A DNA stretch of 64,000 nucleotides from Pseudomonas berkeleyensis (lineage in GTDB: Bacteria; Pseudomonadota; Gammaproteobacteria; Pseudomonadales; Pseudomonadaceae), in the NCBI RefSeq assembly GCF_014109765.1, contig NZ_CP059139.1, positions 5,043,001 to 5,107,000 on the forward strand, in the 5' to 3' direction. Within the stretch, counting starts at the first letter, position 1. The number at the start of each line of letters is the position of its first letter. The position numbers and the translations under genes were made by a program. Under the pieces are notes generated by a model. The model was given only the letters and a program-made list of their open reading frames with translations. It was not told where the DNA came from and searched no databases. This document shows, in pieces, positions 27,005 to 38,006 of the stretch.

Positions 27005-27237
27005 GCCTGACTTTCTCTGAACGGCACCGGTCTTCATCCAGGTGACTGGAAGCAGAAACAGGCACGTGCCAAGTCAGGAGCCTGTCTCACACGAGTGAAG
27101 ACTCACACTTTCGGTCACGTCTATCGACGTTGGGCATCCTTCCTTCCCTGCAGCTCGCACACGACGAAGAATCCCCAGCATCCGTGCCAGCCCTGCGGTG
27201 GATTGCCCTCCCCGCGCAGAGAAGAGATAGAGCTAAC

Positions 27238-27969
27238 GTGAACATAACAACGACGCTCTCCCGCTACGACCTCCCTCCTCGCAAACAGAAAACCTCAGAC
27301 ACCGACAGCATCTGCCCTCGTTGCCACTCGAAACAGACCCGGCTGTGTGCCCTTGCCCGCGTTCAGGAGCGCAAGCGCATCGCCCGCGAGCTGCACGACG
27401 AACTGGGACAGCAGTTGACTGCCCTGCAACAGGGGCTGGGCGTATTGCGCATCCACCTGGGCCAGGATCGTCCGGACATGCAGGGTCATATCGAGCGTCT
27501 GACCAGCATCACCCACAGCGCCATCGATGTGATCCGTGAAATCCACAACGGCCCACCGATCAAGCAACTGCAGCACAACCTGAGCAGTACGCTCGAAGGT
27601 CTGATCGAGGAGTTCAGGCAATTGTCGGAGATCGACTGCCGCTTCAACCAGCCCAAGCAGAACGTCGAACTGGAGCCCAGTCGCGCAGCGCACCTCTATC
27701 GCATCGTGCAGGAGTCGCTAACCAATATTCTTCGCCACGCCAATGCCAGCCGAGCCGAAGTGAGCCTGGAACGTCGCGAGAATGATTATGTCCTTGAGAT
27801 ATTCGATGACGGCCAGGGCTTCACCCTCAGCGACATCCTGCCCGATTCCACCGGGATTTCAGGCATGCGTGAGCGTGGCAAACAACTCGGCGGCCCCGTG
27901 ATCATCTTCAGCCACCCCGGCCAGGGCACCATCGTCCAGGCCATATTCCCTGTAAAAATCAATACATAA
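27238..27969 (+). CDS. Cytoplasmic NarL-type sensor histidine kinase with N-terminal cysteine cluster
   Basis: A 243-residue HisKA_3/HATPase_c kinase without membrane segments. The phosphoacceptor motif is ARELHDELGQQL (H53), and the ATP-binding lid has FDDGQGF and SGMRERG. No PAS or GAF domain is present. The short N-terminus has CPRCH and a further Cys (C26, C29, C37), which could bind a metal or Fe-S cluster. I used the GTG at 27238; a TTG at 27130 would add 36 residues without homology support. It pairs with the LuxR-type regulator ten bases downstream. Confidence 0.85.
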   Translation: MNITTTLSRYDLPPRKQKTSDTDSICPRCHSKQTRLCALARVQERKRIARELHDELGQQLTALQQGLGVLRIHLGQDRPDMQGHIERLTSITHSAIDVIREIHNGPPIKQLQHNLSSTLEGLIEEFRQLSEIDCRFNQPKQNVELEPSRAAHLYRIVQESLTNILRHANASRAEVSLERRENDYVLEIFDDGQGFTLSDILPDSTGISGMRERGKQLGGPVIIFSHPGQGTIVQAIFPVKINT

Positions 27970-27978
27970 GGAATGCCT

Positions 27979-28617
27979 ATGATCAATCTGATGATCGTCG
28001 ACGATCACACGATCATGCGCGAGGGCCTGAAACGGCTATTCGAACTGGACAAGGACATCCACATCGCCGAAGAGGCGGCCAACGGTCTACAGGCGCTGGA
28101 GCGTCTGAGAGCGACGCACGTAGACCTCCTCCTTCTCGATATCAGCATGCCGGGCCTGAGTGGCGAAGCGCTCATATCGCGGGTCATCCATCAACACCCG
28201 CACCTGCCCATTCTGGTACTCAGCATGCACTGCGACCCGCATGTCGCCATCCGTGTGTTGCGCTCGGGGGCCACCGGCTACCTGACCAAGACGCAATCGC
28301 CGGAGACACTGATCGCCGCAGTGAAGAAGGTCAGCACTGGCGCGCGCTACATCGATCCGGATCTGCTCGAACAGATCGCGCTGAACAGCCTCAAGCCCAA
28401 TCCGCCGAGCGGCCTGGACAGCCTGACCAACCGAGAGTTCCAGATCATGCGACTACTGGCAGATGGCCTGAGCGTCAATCAGATCGCCGAGCAGTTGATG
28501 ATCAGCAACAAGACCGTCAGCACGCATAAGATAAATCTGATGGAGAAGATGGGCTTTTCCAGCAATGCCGACCTGATCAAATTCGCCAGCAAACTCAGCA
28601 CATCCGAACCAGGCTGA
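27979..28617 (+). CDS. NarL/LuxR family response regulator
   Basis: A 212-residue regulator with a receiver domain (phosphoacceptor D54 in LLLLDISMPGLSG) and a C-terminal GerE/LuxR helix-turn-helix (LTNREFQIMRLLADGLSVNQIAEQL, split here by context: about residues 143-205). The ATG at 27979 is favoured over one six bases earlier because AAGGA would be too close to the earlier codon. It is the cognate partner of the upstream kinase. Its place just ahead of the chemosensory operon makes that operon a candidate target. Confidence 0.9.
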   Translation: MINLMIVDDHTIMREGLKRLFELDKDIHIAEEAANGLQALERLRATHVDLLLLDISMPGLSGEALISRVIHQHPHLPILVLSMHCDPHVAIRVLRSGATGYLTKTQSPETLIAAVKKVSTGARYIDPDLLEQIALNSLKPNPPSGLDSLTNREFQIMRLLADGLSVNQIAEQLMISNKTVSTHKINLMEKMGFSSNADLIKFASKLSTSEPG

Positions 28618-28805: not shown

Positions 28806-29951
28806 GTGCGCGATCAGAACCTCCCCCTGGTTATCCCATCGCTAACGCTGCTGGCCGGCATCGTGGCTGTTGTTCTGGTCGGCATTGGCTGGCTGGGTAC
28901 CATCCCCGCGTTGCTTGGTCTGCTGCTGGTTGGCGGCTTACTCCTCCTCCAGCAGCTAAGGCACAGCACAGCGCCGCAACCCGTCGCCGCCCAGAGCGCT
29001 GACGAGCAACACCCGCAGCGAGATGTAGAGGAGCTATGCGAGCAGACGTTGCCGCTGTGGTCGCAACAGATTCATTCCGCACGCAGCCATACCGAAGAAG
29101 CCATCAGCGCCCTGAGCGAGCGCTTCGCCAACCTTTCCGTGCGTATCCAGCAAAGCCTGGGCAACGGCCCCGAGCGTGAGGCCGGCAACCGCCTGGTCGC
29201 ACTGCTGTCCACCAGCCAGCACGAGCTGGACATGATCATCATGGCATTGCGCGAGGCACTGGCCAGCAAGGAATCCCTGCTCAAGGAAGTGACGGAACTA
29301 TCGAACTTCACCGACCAGTTGCAGGAGATGGCGCAGGACGTCGCCGATATCGCCAAGCAGACCAATCTGCTGGCGCTCAACGCCGCTATCGAGGCCGCAC
29401 GTGCAGGCGAAAGCGGTAGAGGCTTTGCCGTGGTCGCCGACGAGGTGCGCAAGCTGTCCACCATGTCCGGCAGCACCGGCCAGCGCATCGGCGAAACCGT
29501 GACCATCGTCAACACGGCGATCCACAAGACCCTGGACATCTCCCGCGAATACGCCAAGACCGACGCCATCACCCTGAACAACGCCAGTGACGTGATCAAG
29601 GGCGTGATCACCCGCTTCCATCACAGCGCCAGCGGCATCGTCAGCCACAACGAAGCGATGCGCAGTCAGAGCGAAATCGTCGCTCAGGACATCGCCGAAG
29701 TGTTGGTAGCGCTGCAATTCCAGGATCGCATCAGCCAGATGCTCGGGCATGTGAGCAGCGACATCGACAAGCTCTTCGACCACATCCACGCCAGCAACGA
29801 ACAACGCCGGCTCGGCCATCAACCTGCGCCCCTGGACATCCCGCGCTGGCTGGATGAACTGGCCCAGACCTACACCATGCCCGAGCAGCATGACATCCAC
29901 CGGGGCGAAGCACCCGGCAAGCGTAACGATTCCGAAATCACTTTCTTCTGA
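28806..29951 (+). CDS. Short receptor-like MCP protein with CheZ-like C-terminal motif
   Basis: A 381-residue protein with a GTG start preceded by GAGCCAAGAAG. Two adjacent N-terminal membrane helices (about residues 5-27 and 30-47) form a hairpin with almost no periplasmic loop and no HAMP domain. The middle carries the MCP signalling tip ([21 protein letters not shown], about residues 180-200, then [15 protein letters not shown]). The C-terminal part ends with [12 protein letters not shown], in which D307-x3-Q311 resembles the active-site DxxxQ of the CheY-P phosphatase CheZ. It opens an operon that has cheY next and no cheZ gene. The phosphatase idea is inference. Confidence 0.82.
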
Positions 29952-29959
29952 GGTTCCCC

Positions 29960-30328
29960 ATGGGCAAGACCGTACTCATCGTCGACGATTCCGCCTCCAT
30001 CCGGCAGGTCGTCAGCATCACGCTCAAGGGCGCTGGCTACGACGTGATCGAAGGCTGCGACGGCAAGGACGCACTGGGTAAGCTGGACGGGCGCAAGGTG
30101 CACCTGATCATCAGCGACGTGAACATGCCGAACATGGACGGCATCACCTTCCTCAAGAACGTCAAGCAACTACCCGCCTACAAGTTCACTCCGGTGATCA
30201 TGCTCACCACCGAAGCCGGTGAAGCGAAGAAGGAAGAAGGTCGCGCAGCCGGTGCCAAGGCCTGGGTGGTCAAACCTTTCCAGCCAGCGCAGATGCTCAC
30301 CGCCGTCTCCAAGCTGATCCTGCCTTGA
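29960..30328 (+). CDS. cheY: Chemotaxis response regulator CheY
   Basis: A 122-residue stand-alone receiver. The acidic pair D9-D10, phosphoacceptor D53 (IISDVNMPNMDG), T83/T84 in MLTTEAG and K106 in VVKPFQ are all in place, so it should be phosphorylated by the CheA of this operon. It follows the short receptor-like gene by eight bases. Confidence 0.94.
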   Translation: MGKTVLIVDDSASIRQVVSITLKGAGYDVIEGCDGKDALGKLDGRKVHLIISDVNMPNMDGITFLKNVKQLPAYKFTPVIMLTTEAGEAKKEEGRAAGAKAWVVKPFQPAQMLTAVSKLILP

Positions 30329-30338
30329 GGCCAACGCC

Positions 30339-30659
30339 ATGACAGAAGCGTCGGGCGAGAACCTGTATCGCATCCTCCCACTGGAAGGCGGGCTGACCAT
30401 CTACAGCGTCAGCGAACACATGGGGCTGCTGCTGCGGGCCCTGGCGCCTGGCGCTGAAGTCGAACTGGATCTCTCGGCCCTCGACGAACTCGACTGTGCA
30501 GGTCTCCAGCTGCTGGTGCTGACCAAGCAGGAAGCCAGCCGTCAGGGCTGCCAGCTGCGTCTTAGCCACCACAGCCCGGCTGTGATCGAGGCGTTCGAAC
30601 TCAGCGGGCTCGCCTCCTTCTTCGGCGATCCCATTCTGATCAAACCCAGCGACGAGTGA
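30339..30659 (+). CDS. STAS domain protein of the chemosensory operon
   Basis: A 106-residue single STAS (anti-sigma-antagonist-like) domain. The phosphorylation loop that usually reads D-S/T-A-G reads DCAGLQLL here, with Cys53 in the acceptor position, so regulation by Ser/Thr phosphorylation is doubtful. It sits between cheY and cheA with gaps of 10 and 6 bases. Its role in chemosensory complexes is not established; MlaB-type binding or scaffolding roles are possible. Confidence 0.85.
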   Translation: MTEASGENLYRILPLEGGLTIYSVSEHMGLLLRALAPGAEVELDLSALDELDCAGLQLLVLTKQEASRQGCQLRLSHHSPAVIEAFELSGLASFFGDPILIKPSDE

Positions 30660-30665
30660 CGCAGT

Positions 30666-32855
30666 ATGGATATGGACGAAGTACTCAAGATCTTCATCGC
30701 TGAAAGCCGAGAACTGCTCGAACTGATGGAGGAAGCACTGCTCCTACTGGAAAGTGCCCCCGAAGACGCCGACACCATCAATGCGATCTTTCGTGCCGCC
30801 CACACGATCAAGGGCTCGGCCGGACTGTTCGGCCTCGACCTCATCGTCGACTTCACCCATATCGCCGAAAGCGTCCTCGACCGCATCCGCAACGGTGAAC
30901 TGCACTTCGATGAAACCCTCACCGCGCTGTTCCTGCAGGTTGGCGATCACCTCGGCAAACTCATCACCCACCTTGACGAAGGCCATGATCTCGAACAACT
31001 GGACGCCGAGAGCCTGGAGCAGAACCGTCTGCTCGGGGAGCGCCTGAGCGCCTACATGGCGCCACCCAGAAATCCCGGCGGACTGCCTGCCAACCATGAA
31101 CGGATCGAGCGCAGTACCCAGGACGGGCTCAGCGCCGATCACTGGCACCTGTCGCTGCGCTTCGGCCCCGATACCCTGCGCAATGGCATGGATCCGCTGT
31201 CCTTGCTGCGCTACCTCAATACCTTTGGCCGCATCGTCAATATCGTTCCGCTGCTCGACCGCGTGCCGCCAGCGGCTGAGATGGATCCCGAAACTTGCTA
31301 CCTCAGCTTTGAGGTCGCCTTCGCCAGTGACGCCGACAAGGCCACCATCGAGGGCGCCTTCGAGTTCGTCCGCGAAGACAGCCTGATCCGCATCCTGCCT
31401 CCGCACAGCAAGTCCAACGAATACCTCGAACTGATCCGTGCCCTTCCTGAAGAAGATATGCGCCTGGGCGAAATCCTCATGCGCTGCGGCACCCTCACGG
31501 CCGCAGAGCTTCAGGATGTACTGCACGCCCAGGTTCAAGGACAGCAAGAAGCCGAAACCCGCCCCATCGGCCAGGTGTTGATGGAAGAGAGCCTGGTACA
31601 ACCACCGGTGATCGCAGCGGCGCTGCAAAAGCAGCAGCAGGTCAAGGAAAGTCGCAACAACGAGAACAACCTGATCCGCGTTGATGCCGGCAAGCTCGAC
31701 CAACTGATCAACCTGGTCGGCGAACTGATCATCGCTGGCGCCGGCGCACGCATGACAGCCCAACAATGTGGCAATGCCGAAATGCTGGAGTCCACCGAAC
31801 AACTTTCGCGCCTCGTGGAAGAAGTGCGCGACTCGGCATTGACCCTGCGCATGGTGCAGATCGGCGCCACCTTCAACCGCTTCCAGCGTGTGGTGCGCGA
31901 CGTTTCACGCGAGATCGGCAAGGACATCACCCTGTCCATCAGCGGTGGCGAAACCGAGCTGGACAAGACCGTGGTCGAGCGCATCACCGACCCGCTGACT
32001 CACCTGGTGCGCAACGCCATGGATCATGGCATCGAACCCTTGGCAGTGCGCCAGGCACGAGGCAAGCCCGCGCAAGGCAACGTGCGCCTGAACGCCTACC
32101 ACGACGCAGGCAGCATCGTGCTGGAAGTGACGGACGACGGTGGTGGTCTTGACCCTCAGCGGATCCTCGCCAAGGCCCGCGAGCGCGGGCTGATCAGCGA
32201 CGGGCAGGTGCTGACCGAAAAGGAAACGTTCAACCTTATCTTCGAACCAGGCTTCTCCACCGCCGACCAGGTCAGCAATCTCTCGGGGCGCGGCGTCGGT
32301 ATGGATGTGGTCAAGCGCAACATTTCCGCCCTGCGCGGCAACATCGAGCTGGACAGCCGCCTGGGTGAAGGTACCTGCGTACGCATCCGCCTGCCGCTGA
32401 CCCTGGCCATCATCGACGGTTTCCTGGTCGGTGTAGGCCCGGCGGGTTACGTGATCCCGCTGGATCTGGTCGAGGAATGCATCGAACTCGAGCCTGGCGC
32501 ATGCCATGACCGCGGCCACATCTCGCTACGTGGCGAGGTATTGCCATTCATCCGCATGCGCGAGCTGTTCGATGAGGAAGGCCAACCACCAAGGCGCGAA
32601 AACGTGGTCGTCGTCAGCTACGCCGGCCAGCGTGCCGGATTGGTCGTCGATCACCTGATGGGCGAATTCCAGACCGTGATCAAGCCGCTGGGCAAGCTGT
32701 TTGGCACCTGCCGGGGCATTGGTGGTTTCACCATCCTGGGCAGTGGCGCCGTCGCGCTGATCCTCGACATACCCAGCCTCTTGACCGACCTCGCACACCC
32801 GACTGCCCACGCTGCACCCGCTGCACCCGCTGCACCCGCTGCCATCGAAGCCTGA
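30666..32855 (+). CDS. cheA: Chemotaxis histidine kinase CheA with MshEN-like linker repeats
   Basis: A 729-residue kinase. The order is HPt (residues 1-~105, H46 in AAHTIKG), a ~80-residue region typical of some CheA proteins (about 160-240), a linker with two MshEN-like repeats (R266-LGEIL and R299-PIGQVL), dimerisation (about 335-395), HATPase (HLVRNAMDHG, DDGGGLDP, GRGVGMDVV) and a CheW-like regulatory domain to about 710. A classical P2 CheY-binding domain is not obvious. The C-terminus ends in an Ala/Pro repeat. It phosphorylates the CheY and CheB of this operon. Confidence 0.94.
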   Translation: MDMDEVLKIFIAESRELLELMEEALLLLESAPEDADTINAIFRAAHTIKGSAGLFGLDLIVDFTHIAESVLDRIRNGELHFDETLTALFLQVGDHLGKLITHLDEGHDLEQLDAESLEQNRLLGERLSAYMAPPRNPGGLPANHERIERSTQDGLSADHWHLSLRFGPDTLRNGMDPLSLLRYLNTFGRIVNIVPLLDRVPPAAEMDPETCYLSFEVAFASDADKATIEGAFEFVREDSLIRILPPHSKSNEYLELIRALPEEDMRLGEILMRCGTLTAAELQDVLHAQVQGQQEAETRPIGQVLMEESLVQPPVIAAALQKQQQVKESRNNENNLIRVDAGKLDQLINLVGELIIAGAGARMTAQQCGNAEMLESTEQLSRLVEEVRDSALTLRMVQIGATFNRFQRVVRDVSREIGKDITLSISGGETELDKTVVERITDPLTHLVRNAMDHGIEPLAVRQARGKPAQGNVRLNAYHDAGSIVLEVTDDGGGLDPQRILAKARERGLISDGQVLTEKETFNLIFEPGFSTADQVSNLSGRGVGMDVVKRNISALRGNIELDSRLGEGTCVRIRLPLTLAIIDGFLVGVGPAGYVIPLDLVEECIELEPGACHDRGHISLRGEVLPFIRMRELFDEEGQPPRRENVVVVSYAGQRAGLVVDHLMGEFQTVIKPLGKLFGTCRGIGGFTILGSGAVALILDIPSLLTDLAHPTAHAAPAAPAAPAAIEA
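32811..32843 (+). repeat. 9-base tandem repeat at the end of cheA
   Basis: Three exact copies of GCTGCACCC (32811-32837) followed by GCTGCC. They encode an AAP-type tail after the CheW-like domain. Being in frame, copy-number slippage would change tail length without a frameshift. Confidence 0.85.
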
Positions 32856-32879: not shown

Positions 32880-33449
32880 ATGAGTCTTCCCAGCAGCCCA
32901 GCCAGCCTCGAGCAACATCCGCTGGTGAGCAGTACATCTGCGCAAGAGCAGAGCCTGCCGCAGCAGTACCTGACGTTCGAGCTCAACGAACGCCGCTACG
33001 CGCTGGATGGTCTGTGCGTGCGCGAAATCATCGAGTACCCGCAACTGACACGTGTGCCCATGGCTGCCACCTGCATCCATGGCGTCATCAACCTGCGCGG
33101 GGCCGTGGTACCAGTGATCGACCTGAGCCTGCGCTTCGGCCAGGGCGCGAGCCGTATAGACAAACGCACCTGCATCATCATCGTCGAGGTCACGGACGAC
33201 GAGGACGCCCACGTACTGGGCATCATCGTCGACGCCGTCAGCGAAGTCCTCGAAGTGGCCGCCAGCCAAGTGCGGCCAGCCCCGACCTTCGGCAACCCCG
33301 TTCGCGCCGACTTCATCCACGGCATGGTTCGCCAGGGTGACGAATTCATCGTTTTGCTGACCATCGAAAACACCCTGGCGGTTGCCGAAATCGCGGCTTC
33401 CGGCAGCACCACGCACGCACGACAAGCGCTTGAGCGCCCGGCTAGGTAA
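32880..33449 (+). CDS. cheW: Chemotaxis coupling protein CheW (first copy)
   Basis: A 189-residue CheW with a ~30-residue Ser/Gln-rich N-terminal extension ahead of the fold ([20 protein letters not shown]). The motifs [14 protein letters not shown] and [15 protein letters not shown] are canonical for coupling receptors to CheA. It lies 24 bases after cheA. A second cheW follows the receptor gene, so this array has two adaptor types. Confidence 0.94.
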
Positions 33450-33465
33450 TACGGAGAGAGTAACC

Positions 33466-35109
33466 ATGTTCAAGAATATGAGAGTGGCGACCAAGCTTGG
33501 CCTGGGCTTTGGCTCGGTCGTGGCCCTGCTGGTGCTGGCGACGGTGCTCGGGGTCATGCGCATGAGCGCGATCAATGCGGCCAACGACTTCATCGTATCT
33601 GATCGCTATCCCAAGATCGTTCAGTCCAACACCATCAAGGAGGAGACCCTCAACCAGGCCCGACTGGTGCGAGATCTGATCATTCGTGATGATCCGGCAG
33701 CCGATGCAAAGAACATGGAAGGCATCACCGTCAGCCGTGAGCGTCGGGCCAGCGCTTTCGAAGAGCTGCAGAAAACCGTGAATACGCCGCAAGGGCGCGA
33801 TCTGCTGGCACGCATCAATGCTGCTCGCATGCTGGTAGGCCAGCGCTATGAAGAGCTGTTCACCTTCGTTGACGACTCCGAACGTGCTCTGGCCTATCTC
33901 TACGATCAGGTGGTTCCTGCCAACAACGAGTTGCTGGCGTCTGCCCAGGCCATGGTGGACTTCCAGAGTGGTCTGATGGACAAGAGCGCAGAGGAAGCAA
34001 CGGCGCTCTATGAAGAGTCGCGCATGCAACTGATGATCATCGGTGGCGCTGCCGTGCTGATCTCCATTCTGCTCGCCTGGCTGATTACCCACAGCCTGCT
34101 GCGCCAACTCGGTGGTGAGCCGGGCTACGCGGCTGAAGTGGTAACCCGCATCGCCGAGGGCGACCTCCGGGTGGAGGTCGCTACCCGCAACGGCGATACC
34201 ACCAGCATGCTCGCCGCCATCAAGAGCATGTCGCAGCGCCTGGCCCAGATCATCACCGAAGTGCGTAGTTCTGCCGACTCGCTGACCAGCGCCTCCGAGG
34301 AGATTTCCGCCACGGCTCAGAGCATGAGTCAGGCCGCTTCCGAACAGGCGGCCTCGGTCGAGGAAACCAGCGCTTCGATGGAGCAGATGTCGGCGTCCAT
34401 CGCGCAGAATACCGAGAATGCGCGCATCACCGACGGCATGGCCAGCAAGGCCAGCGGCGAAGCCGGCGAAGGTGGCCAGGCGGTCAAGGAAACCGTACGC
34501 GCCATGAAAACCATCGCTGACAAGATCGGTATCGTCGACGACATCGCCTACCAGACCAACCTGCTCGCACTCAACGCCGCCATCGAAGCTGCGCGTGCCG
34601 GCGAGCACGGCAAAGGCTTCGCCGTGGTAGCTGCCGAAGTTCGCAAGCTGGCCGAGCGCAGCCAGGTGGCCGCCCAGGAAATCGGCGAGGTGGCCAAGTC
34701 CAGCGTACAACTGGCCGAACGCGCCGGCACCCTGCTTGACGAGATCGTGCCGTCCATCGCCAAGACCTCCGATCTGGTGCAGGAAATCTCTGCGGCCTCC
34801 GAGGAGCAGAGCTCCGGCGTCGGCCAGATCAGCACGGCGATGAACCAACTCAATGAAATCACCCAGCAGAACGCCTCTTCCTCCGAGGAGCTTGCGGCCA
34901 CTGCAGAGGAAATGAGCGGCCAGGCAGAGCAACTGCAACAGCTGATGGACTTCTTCAAGCTCAACAGCATGGCCACTGGGCGCAGCCAGCAACGCCACGT
35001 TCAACAGCCACGCCCGAGCCACTCATCGCGGGCACAAACCATCGACGATGACGCCGCGATGCCAATGGCAGGCGGTCTTCCGGCCGGTTACGTGCGCTTC
35101 CAGGAGTAG
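33466..35109 (+). CDS. Methyl-accepting chemotaxis protein with 4-helix-bundle sensor
   Basis: A 547-residue transmembrane receptor; the ATG at 33466 has GGAGAGAG upstream. It has a first membrane segment at residues ~10-32, a periplasmic four-helix-bundle domain (MCP_4HB type, about 33-187), a second membrane segment (about 188-208), HAMP (to about 265) and a cytoplasmic signalling domain with the tip [18 protein letters not shown]. The C-terminus reads GYVRFQE; GYVRF fits the aromatic-x2-aromatic pattern of CheR/CheB tethers but is followed by two more residues. The ligand is unknown. Confidence 0.92.
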
Positions 35110-35112
35110 CCG

Positions 35113-35625
35113 ATGGCTGCCGCAATCAGCAATGCCGCCGGCCAGTACCTGACGTTTACCCTGGCTCAGGAGCTGTTCGCCGTCGATATCCATGCCGTAC
35201 GCGAGATCATCGAGTACGGCCGGCTGACCAGCGTACCGATGATGCCGCCGAGCATACTTGGCGTCATCAACCTACGTGGGGCTGTCGTGCCGGTCATCGA
35301 TCTTGGCCTGCGCTTCGGCGGCAGTGCCACGGCGATCGGCCCACGTACCTGCATCGTCATACTGGAAATCGCCTCGACTGAGGGGCTACGCGTCATCGGC
35401 ATGGTGGTCGAAGCGGTCAACGAAGTGCTGGAGCTGGGTAGCGGGCAGATCGAGCCCGCCCCAAGCTTCGGTAATCATATCCGCGCAGACTTCATTCGCG
35501 GCATGGGCAAGCTGGATGATCGGCTGGTCGTGCTGCTCGATGTTGGTCGGGTGCTATCGGATGATGAAATAGCGCTGCTGGAGCAAGCCAGCGCACACCG
35601 CGGGACGATGCAGGACAATCCATGA
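35113..35625 (+). CDS. cheW: Chemotaxis coupling protein CheW (second copy)
   Basis: A 170-residue CheW (QYLTFTLAQELFAVDIHAVREIIEYG, seen as separate parts of its first strands) with the conserved [19 protein letters not shown]. It starts three bases after the receptor gene and overlaps cheR by four bases. It lacks the N-terminal extension of the first CheW and differs at the receptor-contact loop (GRLTSVPMMPP), so the two may not be interchangeable. Confidence 0.94.
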   Translation: MAAAISNAAGQYLTFTLAQELFAVDIHAVREIIEYGRLTSVPMMPPSILGVINLRGAVVPVIDLGLRFGGSATAIGPRTCIVILEIASTEGLRVIGMVVEAVNEVLELGSGQIEPAPSFGNHIRADFIRGMGKLDDRLVVLLDVGRVLSDDEIALLEQASAHRGTMQDNP

Positions 35626-36443
35626 GCAGCAACACCGCCATCGCCCTGAGTGACCTGGAGTTTGCCAAGTTTCGCCAGCTGATCTACGAGATCGCCGGCA
35701 TCAGCCTTTCCGATGCAAAGAAACCGCTGGTAGCCGGGCGGCTGAGCAAGCGCCTGCGCGAGTTCGAGCTCGACAGCTACGGCGAATACTTCCGTCGCCT
35801 GAGCCAGAGTCCGGCAGAGCTGCAGACGTGCGTCGATCTGCTGACCACCAACGAAACCTACTTCTTTCGCGAACCCAAGCATTTCGACTTCCTGCGTGAG
35901 CGCCTTATCCAGCCAGGGCTGATTCCCAGCGGGCGGCCCCTGCGCATCTGGAGTGGTGCCTGCTCCAGCGGTGAGGAGCCGTACAGCATTGCACTGCTGC
36001 TGGCTGACGTACTCGGCGACAAACCTTGGGAGATCCTTGCGTCGGATATCAGCCAGCGGGTGCTGGATCGCGCCCGTGCCGGGGTCTATCGTGTGCAGGA
36101 CAGCGAAGATATCCCGCGCCGGATGCTGGTCAGCCACTGTTTTCGCGGCGTTGGCGCCAACGAGGGCAATCTGCTTATCGACCCGGCACTGCGTCGCCGG
36201 GTGCGCTTCGAGCAGATCAACCTGAACAACTCATTGCCGGAAGTCGGTCAATTCGATGTGATCTTCCTGCGTAACGTCATGATCTACTTCGATGGTGAAA
36301 CCAAGCGTCAGGTCGTGAAGCGCCTGCTGAGTCGCCTGCGCCCAGGTGGTTACTTTCTGATCAGCCATTCGGAAAGCCTCAACGGCATCGATGAGACGCT
36401 CAAGGTCGTGAAACCGTCGATCTACCGCAAACCCGATGCCTAG
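35622..36443 (+). CDS. cheR: Chemotaxis protein methyltransferase CheR
   Basis: CheR methylates glutamates on receptors using SAM. The 273-residue protein has the N-terminal helical domain (residues 1-~85) and the SAM-binding domain with TTNETYFFREPKHF, IWSGACSSGEEPYSIA and FLRNVMIYFD. The length equals that of single-domain CheR. It overlaps cheW (ATGA) and cheD (8 bases). Confidence 0.95.
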   Translation: MSSNTAIALSDLEFAKFRQLIYEIAGISLSDAKKPLVAGRLSKRLREFELDSYGEYFRRLSQSPAELQTCVDLLTTNETYFFREPKHFDFLRERLIQPGLIPSGRPLRIWSGACSSGEEPYSIALLLADVLGDKPWEILASDISQRVLDRARAGVYRVQDSEDIPRRMLVSHCFRGVGANEGNLLIDPALRRRVRFEQINLNNSLPEVGQFDVIFLRNVMIYFDGETKRQVVKRLLSRLRPGGYFLISHSESLNGIDETLKVVKPSIYRKPDA

Positions 36444-36954
36444 GCCTGCTGCACCACGTGACGTCTACCTGCAACCCGGCGATCTGCACTTCGCAGGCGT
36501 CGGCACGCGCATCCGTACCCTGCTCGGCTCTTGCGTCTCGCTGGTGTTCTGGCATCCGCGCCATCGATTGGGCGGCATGTGCCACTACATGCTGCCAACC
36601 CGGGGCATGCCTGGCCCAAAGCTCGATGGCCGCTATGGCGATGAAGCCATGCTCCTGCTCCTGGAGGCCATCAGCGCGCGCGGCACCCGGGCCAGTGAGT
36701 ATCACCTGCGTATTTTCGGAGGCGGCAACATGTTCCCCAACGTCGGCGCGCGAGCCACGCGTCACGTCGGCCAGCAAAACATCGACATGGCACATCAACT
36801 GATTGCCAGACACGGCCTGGTGAGCCATGGCGAACACGTCGGTGGCACTGGGCACCGACACCTGATCTTCGATATCTGGAGCGGCCAGTTGGCCCTGAAG
36901 CAATCCCCCCTAGTAGCTGACAGTGGATGTCCCACTGGAGTACAACCTGCATGA
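36436..36954 (+). CDS. cheD: Chemoreceptor glutamine deamidase CheD
   Basis: CheD deamidates receptor glutamines and can interact with CheC-type phosphatases. The 172-residue protein shows the catalytic Cys in [11 protein letters not shown], the His in GGMCHYMLP and the late FGGGNMF motif. It overlaps both cheR and cheB, so cheW-cheR-cheD-cheB are translationally coupled. No cheC or cheX gene is in the window. Confidence 0.94.
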
Positions 36955-38006
36955 AACCCATCAAAGTCATGATCGTCGACGACTCTGCCGTCGTCCGCCA
37001 GGTATTGGCCTCGGTGCTGGCAGCCGACCCGGCGATCGAGGTTCTGGGCACCGCTGCCGATCCGCTGTTCGCCCTGAGCAAGATGGAGCGTGAGTGGCCG
37101 GACGTGATCGTCCTCGACGTGGAAATGCCGCGCATGGACGGCATCACCTTCCTCAAGAAACTCATGGCTGAACGCCCGACACCGGTCGTGATCTGCTCGA
37201 CACTGACCGAGAAAGGCGCCAGCACCACCATGCAGGCCCTCGCTGCAGGCGCGGTGAGCATCGTCACCAAGCCGCAGGTCAACCTGAGCAAGTTTCTGGT
37301 CAATGCCAGCGATGATCTGCTCGGCGCGGTGAAAGCTGCCGCGCGCGCCAACATGCGCCAACTGGCCAAGAGCAAAGCTCCGGTGCAACCCAAACTGGGC
37401 GCCGATGCCGTGATCCCGGCAGGCCAGCCGGCCATGGCCCGCACCACCGAGCGTGTGGTGGCCATCGGCACCTCCACCGGCGGCACTCAGGCGCTGGAAT
37501 ATATCCTCACCGCCCTGCCGCGGGTCTGCCCCGGCATCGTCATCGTCCAGCACATGCCGGAGCGCTTCACCGCTGCCTTCGCCGAGCGCCTCAACGGCCT
37601 CTGTCAGATCGAGGTGCTGGAGGCGCGCCATGGCGACCGCGTCATGCCCGGTCGAGCCCTGATCGCCCCCGGCGGCCGCCATATGCTGCTCAAACGCAGC
37701 GGTGCGCAGTATATGGTCGAGGTGGTCGACGGCCCGCCAGTCAGTCGCCACAAACCCTCGGTGGACGTGCTGTTTCGCTCCACCGCCCGCGCCGCCGGCG
37801 CCAATGCCACCGGCATCATCATGACCGGGATGGGCGACGATGGCGCCCGCGGCCTGCGTGAAATGTTCGAGGCCGGCGCCCAGACCTTCGGCCAGGACGA
37901 AGCCAGCTGCGTGGTCTATGGCATGCCCAAGGAAGCGAAGAAACTCGGCGCGGTCAGCCGCGAGATTCCGCTGGAGCAGATTCCCGCTGCCATCCTGCGC
38001 AGTTAG
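36951..38006 (+). CDS. cheB: Chemotaxis methylesterase/deamidase CheB
   Basis: A 351-residue CheB with a receiver domain (D10-D11, phosphoacceptor D56 in [13 protein letters not shown]) and a C-terminal methylesterase domain. The catalytic Ser lies in GTSTGG, His in VQHMP and Asp in GMGDDGARG. The ATG at 36951 overlaps the cheD stop by four bases. It is the last gene of the operon, and a strong inverted repeat follows. Confidence 0.96.

Follow-up and report, generated by a model that had tools for sequence, protein, structure and literature searches.

A McpA-like chemoreceptor of Pseudomonas berkeleyensis with a CheZ-like motif, a candidate membrane-tethered phosphatase for the adjacent CheY

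Introduction

In E. coli CheZ, D143 pairs with the active-site lysine of CheY-P and Q147 positions the attacking water, and the CheZ tail binds CheY. The CheC, CheX and FliY phosphatases have a different fold and resemble the receptor described here in proposed role only.

The closest described relatives of this receptor are the McpA-like receptors (McpA/CttP and VCA1088) of F7 chemosensory clusters, short methyl-accepting chemotaxis proteins (MCPs) that share with it a predicted membrane region, an adjacent cheY and a conserved C-terminus. The role of that C-terminus is left unclear in the accessible text of PMC7184735. The same text describes the loss of mcpA from F7 systems in the transition to stage 3, with recruitment of the F6 cheY/cheZ pair, and we infer that loss and recruitment were one event. 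A P. aeruginosa PA0180 mutant attaches less, according to the available part of PMC5498041. Among the titles and abstract openings listed, in a search that covered few subscription journals, none connects McpA-like receptors to CheZ or to a phosphatase.

Results

The gene cluster

The window, by which we mean the whole stretch of DNA analysed, comprises 64,000 nucleotides of P. berkeleyensis (NZ_CP059139.1) and contains the following cluster.

27130..27969, + strand: HisKA_3 histidine kinase (Pfam), upstream of the receptor
27973..28617, + strand: LuxR-type response regulator (Pfam), upstream of the receptor
28806..29951, + strand: McpA-like chemoreceptor gene, 381 aa, GTG start (translation, Pfam, homologues)
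29960..30328, + strand: CheY, the proposed substrate (Pfam, structure-database relatives, alignment)
30339..30659, + strand: STAS-domain protein (Pfam)
30666..32855, + strand: CheA
32880..33449, + strand: CheW
33466..35109, + strand: second MCP, with a 4HB sensor; ATG start at 33466; ends GYVRFQE, CheR-tether-like
35113..35625, + strand: CheW
35622..36443, + strand: CheR
36436..36954, + strand: CheD
36927..38006, + strand: CheB

Only 8 bp separate the receptor stop codon from cheY. Gene-by-gene domain calls from the histidine kinase through CheB found no cheZ, cheC or cheX, in agreement with the earlier note, which had described a cluster with cheY and none of these three. CheC and CheX had zero matches at E ≤ 0.001 in the host genome, and the sole host CheZ lies at chromosome 2153688-2154329, beside another CheY. 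The earlier note had also placed the receptor at the head of the operon. It is the first of the che genes proper; the histidine kinase and LuxR-type regulator, however, precede it on the same strand at a distance of 188 bp, so the receptor is perhaps not first in the transcript. The same kinase and regulator pair precedes the receptor in many related clusters.

The window CheY has its best solved relatives in CheY entries 4hnr and 4h60, and carries Trp at the position of E. coli Tyr106 (AKAWVVKPF). At the positions of N59, E89 and K109 in E. coli CheY, N, E and K are present in 73 of 73 CheYs (the window and 72 loci). The second MCP would overlap cheW if translated from a TTG at 33382 and does not from the ATG at 33466; near its end is YVRF, which resembles a CheR tether, with two further residues after it. 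Heptads counted by hand against Tsr, a count of little weight, make this MCP look shorter than Tsr by one heptad in each helix, as in the 34H class that the accessible text of PMC11253619 associates with F8; by that count the window cluster is probably F8-like and of a class other than F7. Where F7 clusters have an Aer2-type receptor ending in WEEF or WEQF, the window cluster has STAS and a second MCP with a four-helix sensor.

Domain layout of the receptor

The receptor is built from the following segments.

28830..28961, + strand: membrane hairpin, residues 9-52 (AF2 helices 9-27 and 32-52), with a tiny loop and no periplasmic sensor
29010..29159, + strand: N-terminal module helix, residues 69-118 (AF2; conserved alignment columns; weak alignment to an MCP-less protein, E 2.1e-4)
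29172..29660, + strand: MCP signalling hairpin, about residues 123-285, tip near E202 (Pfam PF00015, AF2 helix)
29658..29810, + strand: C-terminal module helix, about residues 285-335, bearing the CheZ-like motif (AF2, hhalign)
29706..29744, + strand: CheZ-like motif segment, with D307 at 29724-29726 and Q311 at 29736-29738
29847..29888, + strand: conserved segment, residues 348-361 (alignment; similar stretch in a small MCP-less family)
29931..29948, + strand: C-terminal peptide SEITFF-COOH, residues 376-381 (alignments; predicted disordered by AF2)

The MCP signalling domain PF00015 (residues 158-292, E 1.1e-24, 87.7 bits against a cut-off of 34.6) is the only domain above the Pfam cut-off, and no sensor domain was called. 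The AF2 model (monomer, 80 sequences, pLDDT 80.6, pTM 0.43) lays out the membrane hairpin, helix 69-118 and a long helical MCP region at 123-335; two short helices follow, and the tail is disordered. The domain calls and the model thus uphold the description of the protein as a membrane hairpin without a sensor domain. By its predicted membrane region and its conserved C-terminus lacking the CheR pentapeptide, the features used for McpA-like receptors by Ortega (2020), the receptor is, on sequence grounds, a member of that family.

Translation of 28806-29951 places D307 and Q311 in LQFQDRISQ of the C-terminal helix, at the spacing of the CheZ phosphatase residues as the earlier note had observed, and both fall inside a helix predicted by AF2 (mean pLDDT 86 for residues 301-310, 89 for 311-320 and 91 for 321-330). 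Structure comparison of the receptor model returned MCPs at the top and then generic coiled coils, helical hairpins having little discriminating power, and CheZ was absent from the 50 rows shown in each of four structure comparisons made with the receptor and the small module described below.

Conservation of the motif and of the C-terminal tail

Loss of D307 or Q311 among close homologues had been named beforehand as the observation that would count against the motif. Both residues are invariant in 121/121 sequences, namely the window protein and the 120 homologues listed of 7998 scored, a set gathered by overall similarity without use of the motif. The receptor thus pairs a conserved Asp with a conserved Gln four positions further along one helix, as a CheZ-type mechanism requires. 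In an 80-sequence alignment with a mean column identity of 40%, to which the similarity search contributed 57 rows and loci retrieved by motif-containing patterns the other 23, few columns beyond the MCP tip are invariant; they include Q304-F305-Q306-D307-R308, Q311 and L313, and also W348, E360 and T379-F380-F381. The motif Asp lies 105 residues from the tip, a span of exactly 15 heptads, in 89 of the 91 measured from a motif-selected set of 97. The pattern [FY][QEH]DxxxQ occurs in the last 140 residues of 0/94 other MCP ORFs of 80 related loci, some of these ORFs being cut by locus ends. By itself DxxxQ is a short motif, and it might have arisen by chance in an ordinary receptor; conservation in 121/121 receptors and in 73/73 members of the small family described below, together with the 0/94 count among other MCP ORFs, excludes such a chance match, and the fixed tip spacing leaves this reading scarcely credible.

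The receptors of the same similarity-found set end in ITFF without exception (121/121), after a variable linker. Among the 80 named loci, which were found by motif patterns, the tails are ITFF in 77, VTFF in two and ITYF in one, with VELF, IDLF or IELF in relatives further removed. The tail of the window protein is of the ITFF form, which sets it apart from the McpA-like receptors of the seven F7-type clusters examined. From the motif Asp to the C-terminal end the receptors mostly measure 74-75 residues (48/97; range 62-84), and 25 CheZ proteins measure 71-88.

A CheR tether was considered as the function of the tail and rejected, EITFF being a mismatch to the pentapeptide x-[HFYW]-x2-[HFYW]. 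In P. aeruginosa McpA a valine in the tail blocks interaction with its four CheR homologues, according to the available text of PMC7184735. For F7 the tether reading may still apply, because the available part of PMC11940527 regards E-W/V-E-X-F, in the System III receptors of V. cholerae, as a candidate site for CheR3.

A like peptide, [IV][DE]LF, is found at the end of CheD in 11 of the 12 F7-type loci in which CheD was detected (L225, L226, L228, L229, L231-L234 and L179-L181; the exception, L175, has DLFKE). The CheD tails listed for L002-L081 include a peptide of this kind in one locus only (L008), and the window CheD (36436..36954) has no ITFF-type tail. A tail of this kind, being present on F7-type CheD as well, is therefore not peculiar to phosphatases.

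Genomic context of the receptor

cheY lies directly 3' of the receptor in 78 of 80 loci (72 by gene call and six more as a reading frame); one of the two exceptions ends at a contig end and the other is without a CheY reading frame. The 80 locus stretches, some of which lie on short contigs, were all without a CheZ-like ORF. These loci are the best 80 of at least 551 confirmed stretches and were found with patterns containing the motif. In a CheY-anchored search of 229 class-level genomes, in which the motif played no part, a receptor bearing both QFQDxxxQ and the tail immediately precedes 14 of the 15 closest CheY genes (at least 61% identity, the window's own included). Among the next 15 CheY loci a receptor is directly upstream in one only.

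These next loci are clusters of the STAS-cheY-cheA or cheY-cheA type and look like the stage-1 F7 clusters that have been published. Ten such clusters were examined, two of them cut by contig ends, which leaves eight usable. A FEDxxxQ receptor lies at the far end in three (L225, L228, L234), a small module takes part in two (L226, L231), and three stretches have neither form, each of the three genomes having a match to the receptor C-terminal profile elsewhere. In Pseudomonadaceae, seven F7-type clusters with an Aer2-like receptor (ending EWEEF, DWEEF or EWEQF) were examined, at L175-L177 and L179-L182, and these carry an McpA-like receptor with FQDM(S/C)(S/G)Q and VELF or IDLF. L209/L235 has a close CheY relative in a STAS-cheA cluster without an upstream receptor, and two small modules elsewhere in the genome.

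McpA proteins sit in F6 arrays, and for that reason the receptor could be a phosphatase acting mainly on the flagellar (F6) CheY, linking the two pathways. McpA clusters with F6 components in P. aeruginosa, according to other work cited in the accessible text of PMC7534058, and Shewanella McpA was found with CheA3, as stated in the available portion of PMC9855816. In the latter, overproduction of McpA raised swimming, as did that of three other MCPs; deletion of McpA, however, left swimming unaffected. With that result, with a CheZ already beside the other CheY of the host and with a receptor gene that tracks the cheY of its own cluster, we regard the F6 CheY as a very unlikely main target.

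A small MCP-less family with the same motif and tail

In the stage-1-type clusters L226 and L231 a protein of about 190 aa with AFQFYDRxSQ and a VELF or IELF tail sits between the receptor/STAS genes and cheR, with no McpA-like receptor in the examined stretch. This small module is not a clean replacement for the receptor, since both genomes hold a C-terminal-profile match in an ORF of about 410 aa on another contig. It belongs to a family of which 73 members are listed, the query included (P0124-P0196), those with names being hypothetical or phage-related, and it has no Pfam domain. FYDxxxQ with its D and Q is present in 73/73 and the tail in 72/73. Pfam searches with three of the proteins, up to E 10, returned nothing convincing and no CheZ.

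The small-family profile aligns with the C-terminal part of the receptor at E 3.5e-14 and, more weakly, with its N-terminal helix at E 2.1e-4; against CheZ it gave no significant alignment (E 0.15). The family retains D and Q together with the tail, and the two helices plus the tail therefore form a module that keeps these residues even where the membrane hairpin and the MCP tip are missing. The small protein shows no membrane hairpin and is thus probably soluble. The AF2 model (monomer, 25 sequences, pLDDT 74.5, pTM 0.56) predicts helical hairpins, and structure comparison gave generic helical matches only (best Foldseek E 0.1). The profile matches 38 of the 229 genomes, some of the matches being receptors themselves. 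Among 27 small-family loci examined (L236-L262), an ORF with motif and tail is present in 25, L252 and L262 being the exceptions; cheR is adjacent in seven of the 25 and cheA in one, and the others have no che gene in the examined flanks.

The small family bears on the question of whether the module might dock CheY-P without catalysis, localising or buffering it at the array with DxxxQ as a binding face. A conserved motif, a conserved tail and adjacency to cheY would suit binding equally, and CheD of the F7 type shares the tail though it is not a phosphatase of the CheZ type. In distant receptors and in the small family, however, both residues of catalytic type are invariant while the residues between them vary, and D and Q are kept in a version that has no array domain. 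Docking by itself is, in our judgement, unlikely.

Relation to CheZ

With CheZ (PF04344; E. coli 1kmi_Z; host CheZ) the receptor shares (F/Y)QDxxxQ, a linker and a Phe-ending C-terminal peptide at a comparable distance. CheZ of E. coli and of the host has AQD(F/Y)QDLTGQ and ends in DDLL(D/S)SLGF. The receptor differs by two extra hairpins, one in the membrane and one an MCP insertion, and by the absence of DDLLxSLG from its tail. The whole receptor gave no match to PF04344 up to E 0.1, and its C-terminal part gave nothing convincing in Pfam and no CheZ match up to E 10; by the Pfam gathering score it is not a CheZ.

Profile comparison by hhalign of 75 receptors, which had been collected by motif, with 25 CheZ proteins gave E 1.8e-4, a score of 38.3 and a probability of 49%, over 64 columns without gaps that place D over D and Q over Q. 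The controls reached at most 23.8 in 60 column shuffles, 24.2 in 60 heptad-class shuffles, 19.6 reversed and 22.6 with control MCPs. With D307 and Q311 alone masked the score was 29.3; with the ten columns of residues 304-313 masked it was 22.6, in the same register and inside the shuffle range. Because masking drops the score to background, the signal is carried by the motif block and does not prove a shared ancestry with CheZ.

Whole-genome profiles connect the two families from both sides. The receptor C-terminal profile (A2), run against the 229 genomes, gave at least 150 matches; of the 150 listed, 34 fall on Pfam-called CheZ genes (in 34 genomes), 73 in ORFs of 340-490 aa, 38 in ORFs shorter than 300 aa and five elsewhere, most of those outside CheZ being classed by ORF length. 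The rows of A2 were chosen by motif, so the invariance of D and Q within it is no evidence. In a family-level search with the receptor profile, the short-ORF matches were CheZ in 8/8 examined (of 25 listed). In the reverse direction, the Pfam CheZ search gave 13 rows below its cut-off, six of which proved to be short receptors bearing both motif and tail; ten of the 13 were examined, the remaining four of these being three MCPs without the motif and one row without a qualifying ORF.

The motif-masked background score, the E of 0.15 between the small family and CheZ, and the tail on F7-type CheD would all suit a helix and tail that serve another purpose, such as packing beneath the membrane or docking of CheD, CheB, STAS or CheA, and that have come to resemble CheZ by convergence. 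Against this, the profiles retrieve CheZ and receptors in both directions, and the order of motif, linker and terminal Phe is common to both proteins at a similar distance. We therefore find a different purpose quite improbable, and the resemblance of the receptor to CheZ well supported at the level of sequence.

Discussion

The earlier note had proposed a membrane-tethered sink for CheY-P. A CheZ-like, CheY-directed module on a hairpin stands, with conservation, cheY adjacency, the two-way profiles and the MCP-less form behind it; dephosphorylation, its target and control by receptor state are what we infer. The CheZ-like tail, the MCP-less form and the place of the receptor in the McpA-like family go beyond that note. 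The reading that we prefer, and hold with rather more confidence than doubt, is that the receptor would dephosphorylate the adjacent CheY in the way CheZ does, tethered both to the membrane and to the array. The MCP signalling hairpin would have been inserted between two helices of a CheZ-type module, such that helices 69-118 and 285-335 would meet just below the membrane and form a four-helix bundle in the dimer, at the usual place of a HAMP domain. D307 and Q311 would take the parts of D143 and Q147 in E. coli CheZ, the Asp pairing with the lysine of CheY-P and the Gln positioning the attacking water. The EITFF peptide on its flexible linker may capture CheY-P in the manner of the CheZ tail, and the main substrate would be the CheY encoded next door. 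The MCP tip would place the phosphatase in the receptor array, whose state may adjust its activity. As a counterweight, the regular CheZ of the host, encoded elsewhere, might serve the cluster CheY.

More broadly, the McpA-like receptors and their relative of about 190 aa may constitute an unrecognised family of CheY-P phosphatases, defined by a DxxxQ helix and an [I/V]x[L/F]F-COOH docking peptide. Such a family would serve cheZ-less clusters and would have been discarded when F7 adopted the F6 CheY/CheZ, its peptide being shared with F7-type CheD as an address for CheY-P. For this wider proposal we find belief and doubt evenly balanced. If the receptors are CheZ-type phosphatases, the loss of mcpA at the takeover by F6 cheY/cheZ would have a simple reason. 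The proposal bears on the role of the McpA-like C-terminus, left open in the accessible text of PMC7184735. If it is correct, many cheZ-less chemosensory clusters would hide a phosphatase inside a receptor, signal termination would be located at the array and the membrane, and an unannotated family of small proteins would become a testable enzyme.
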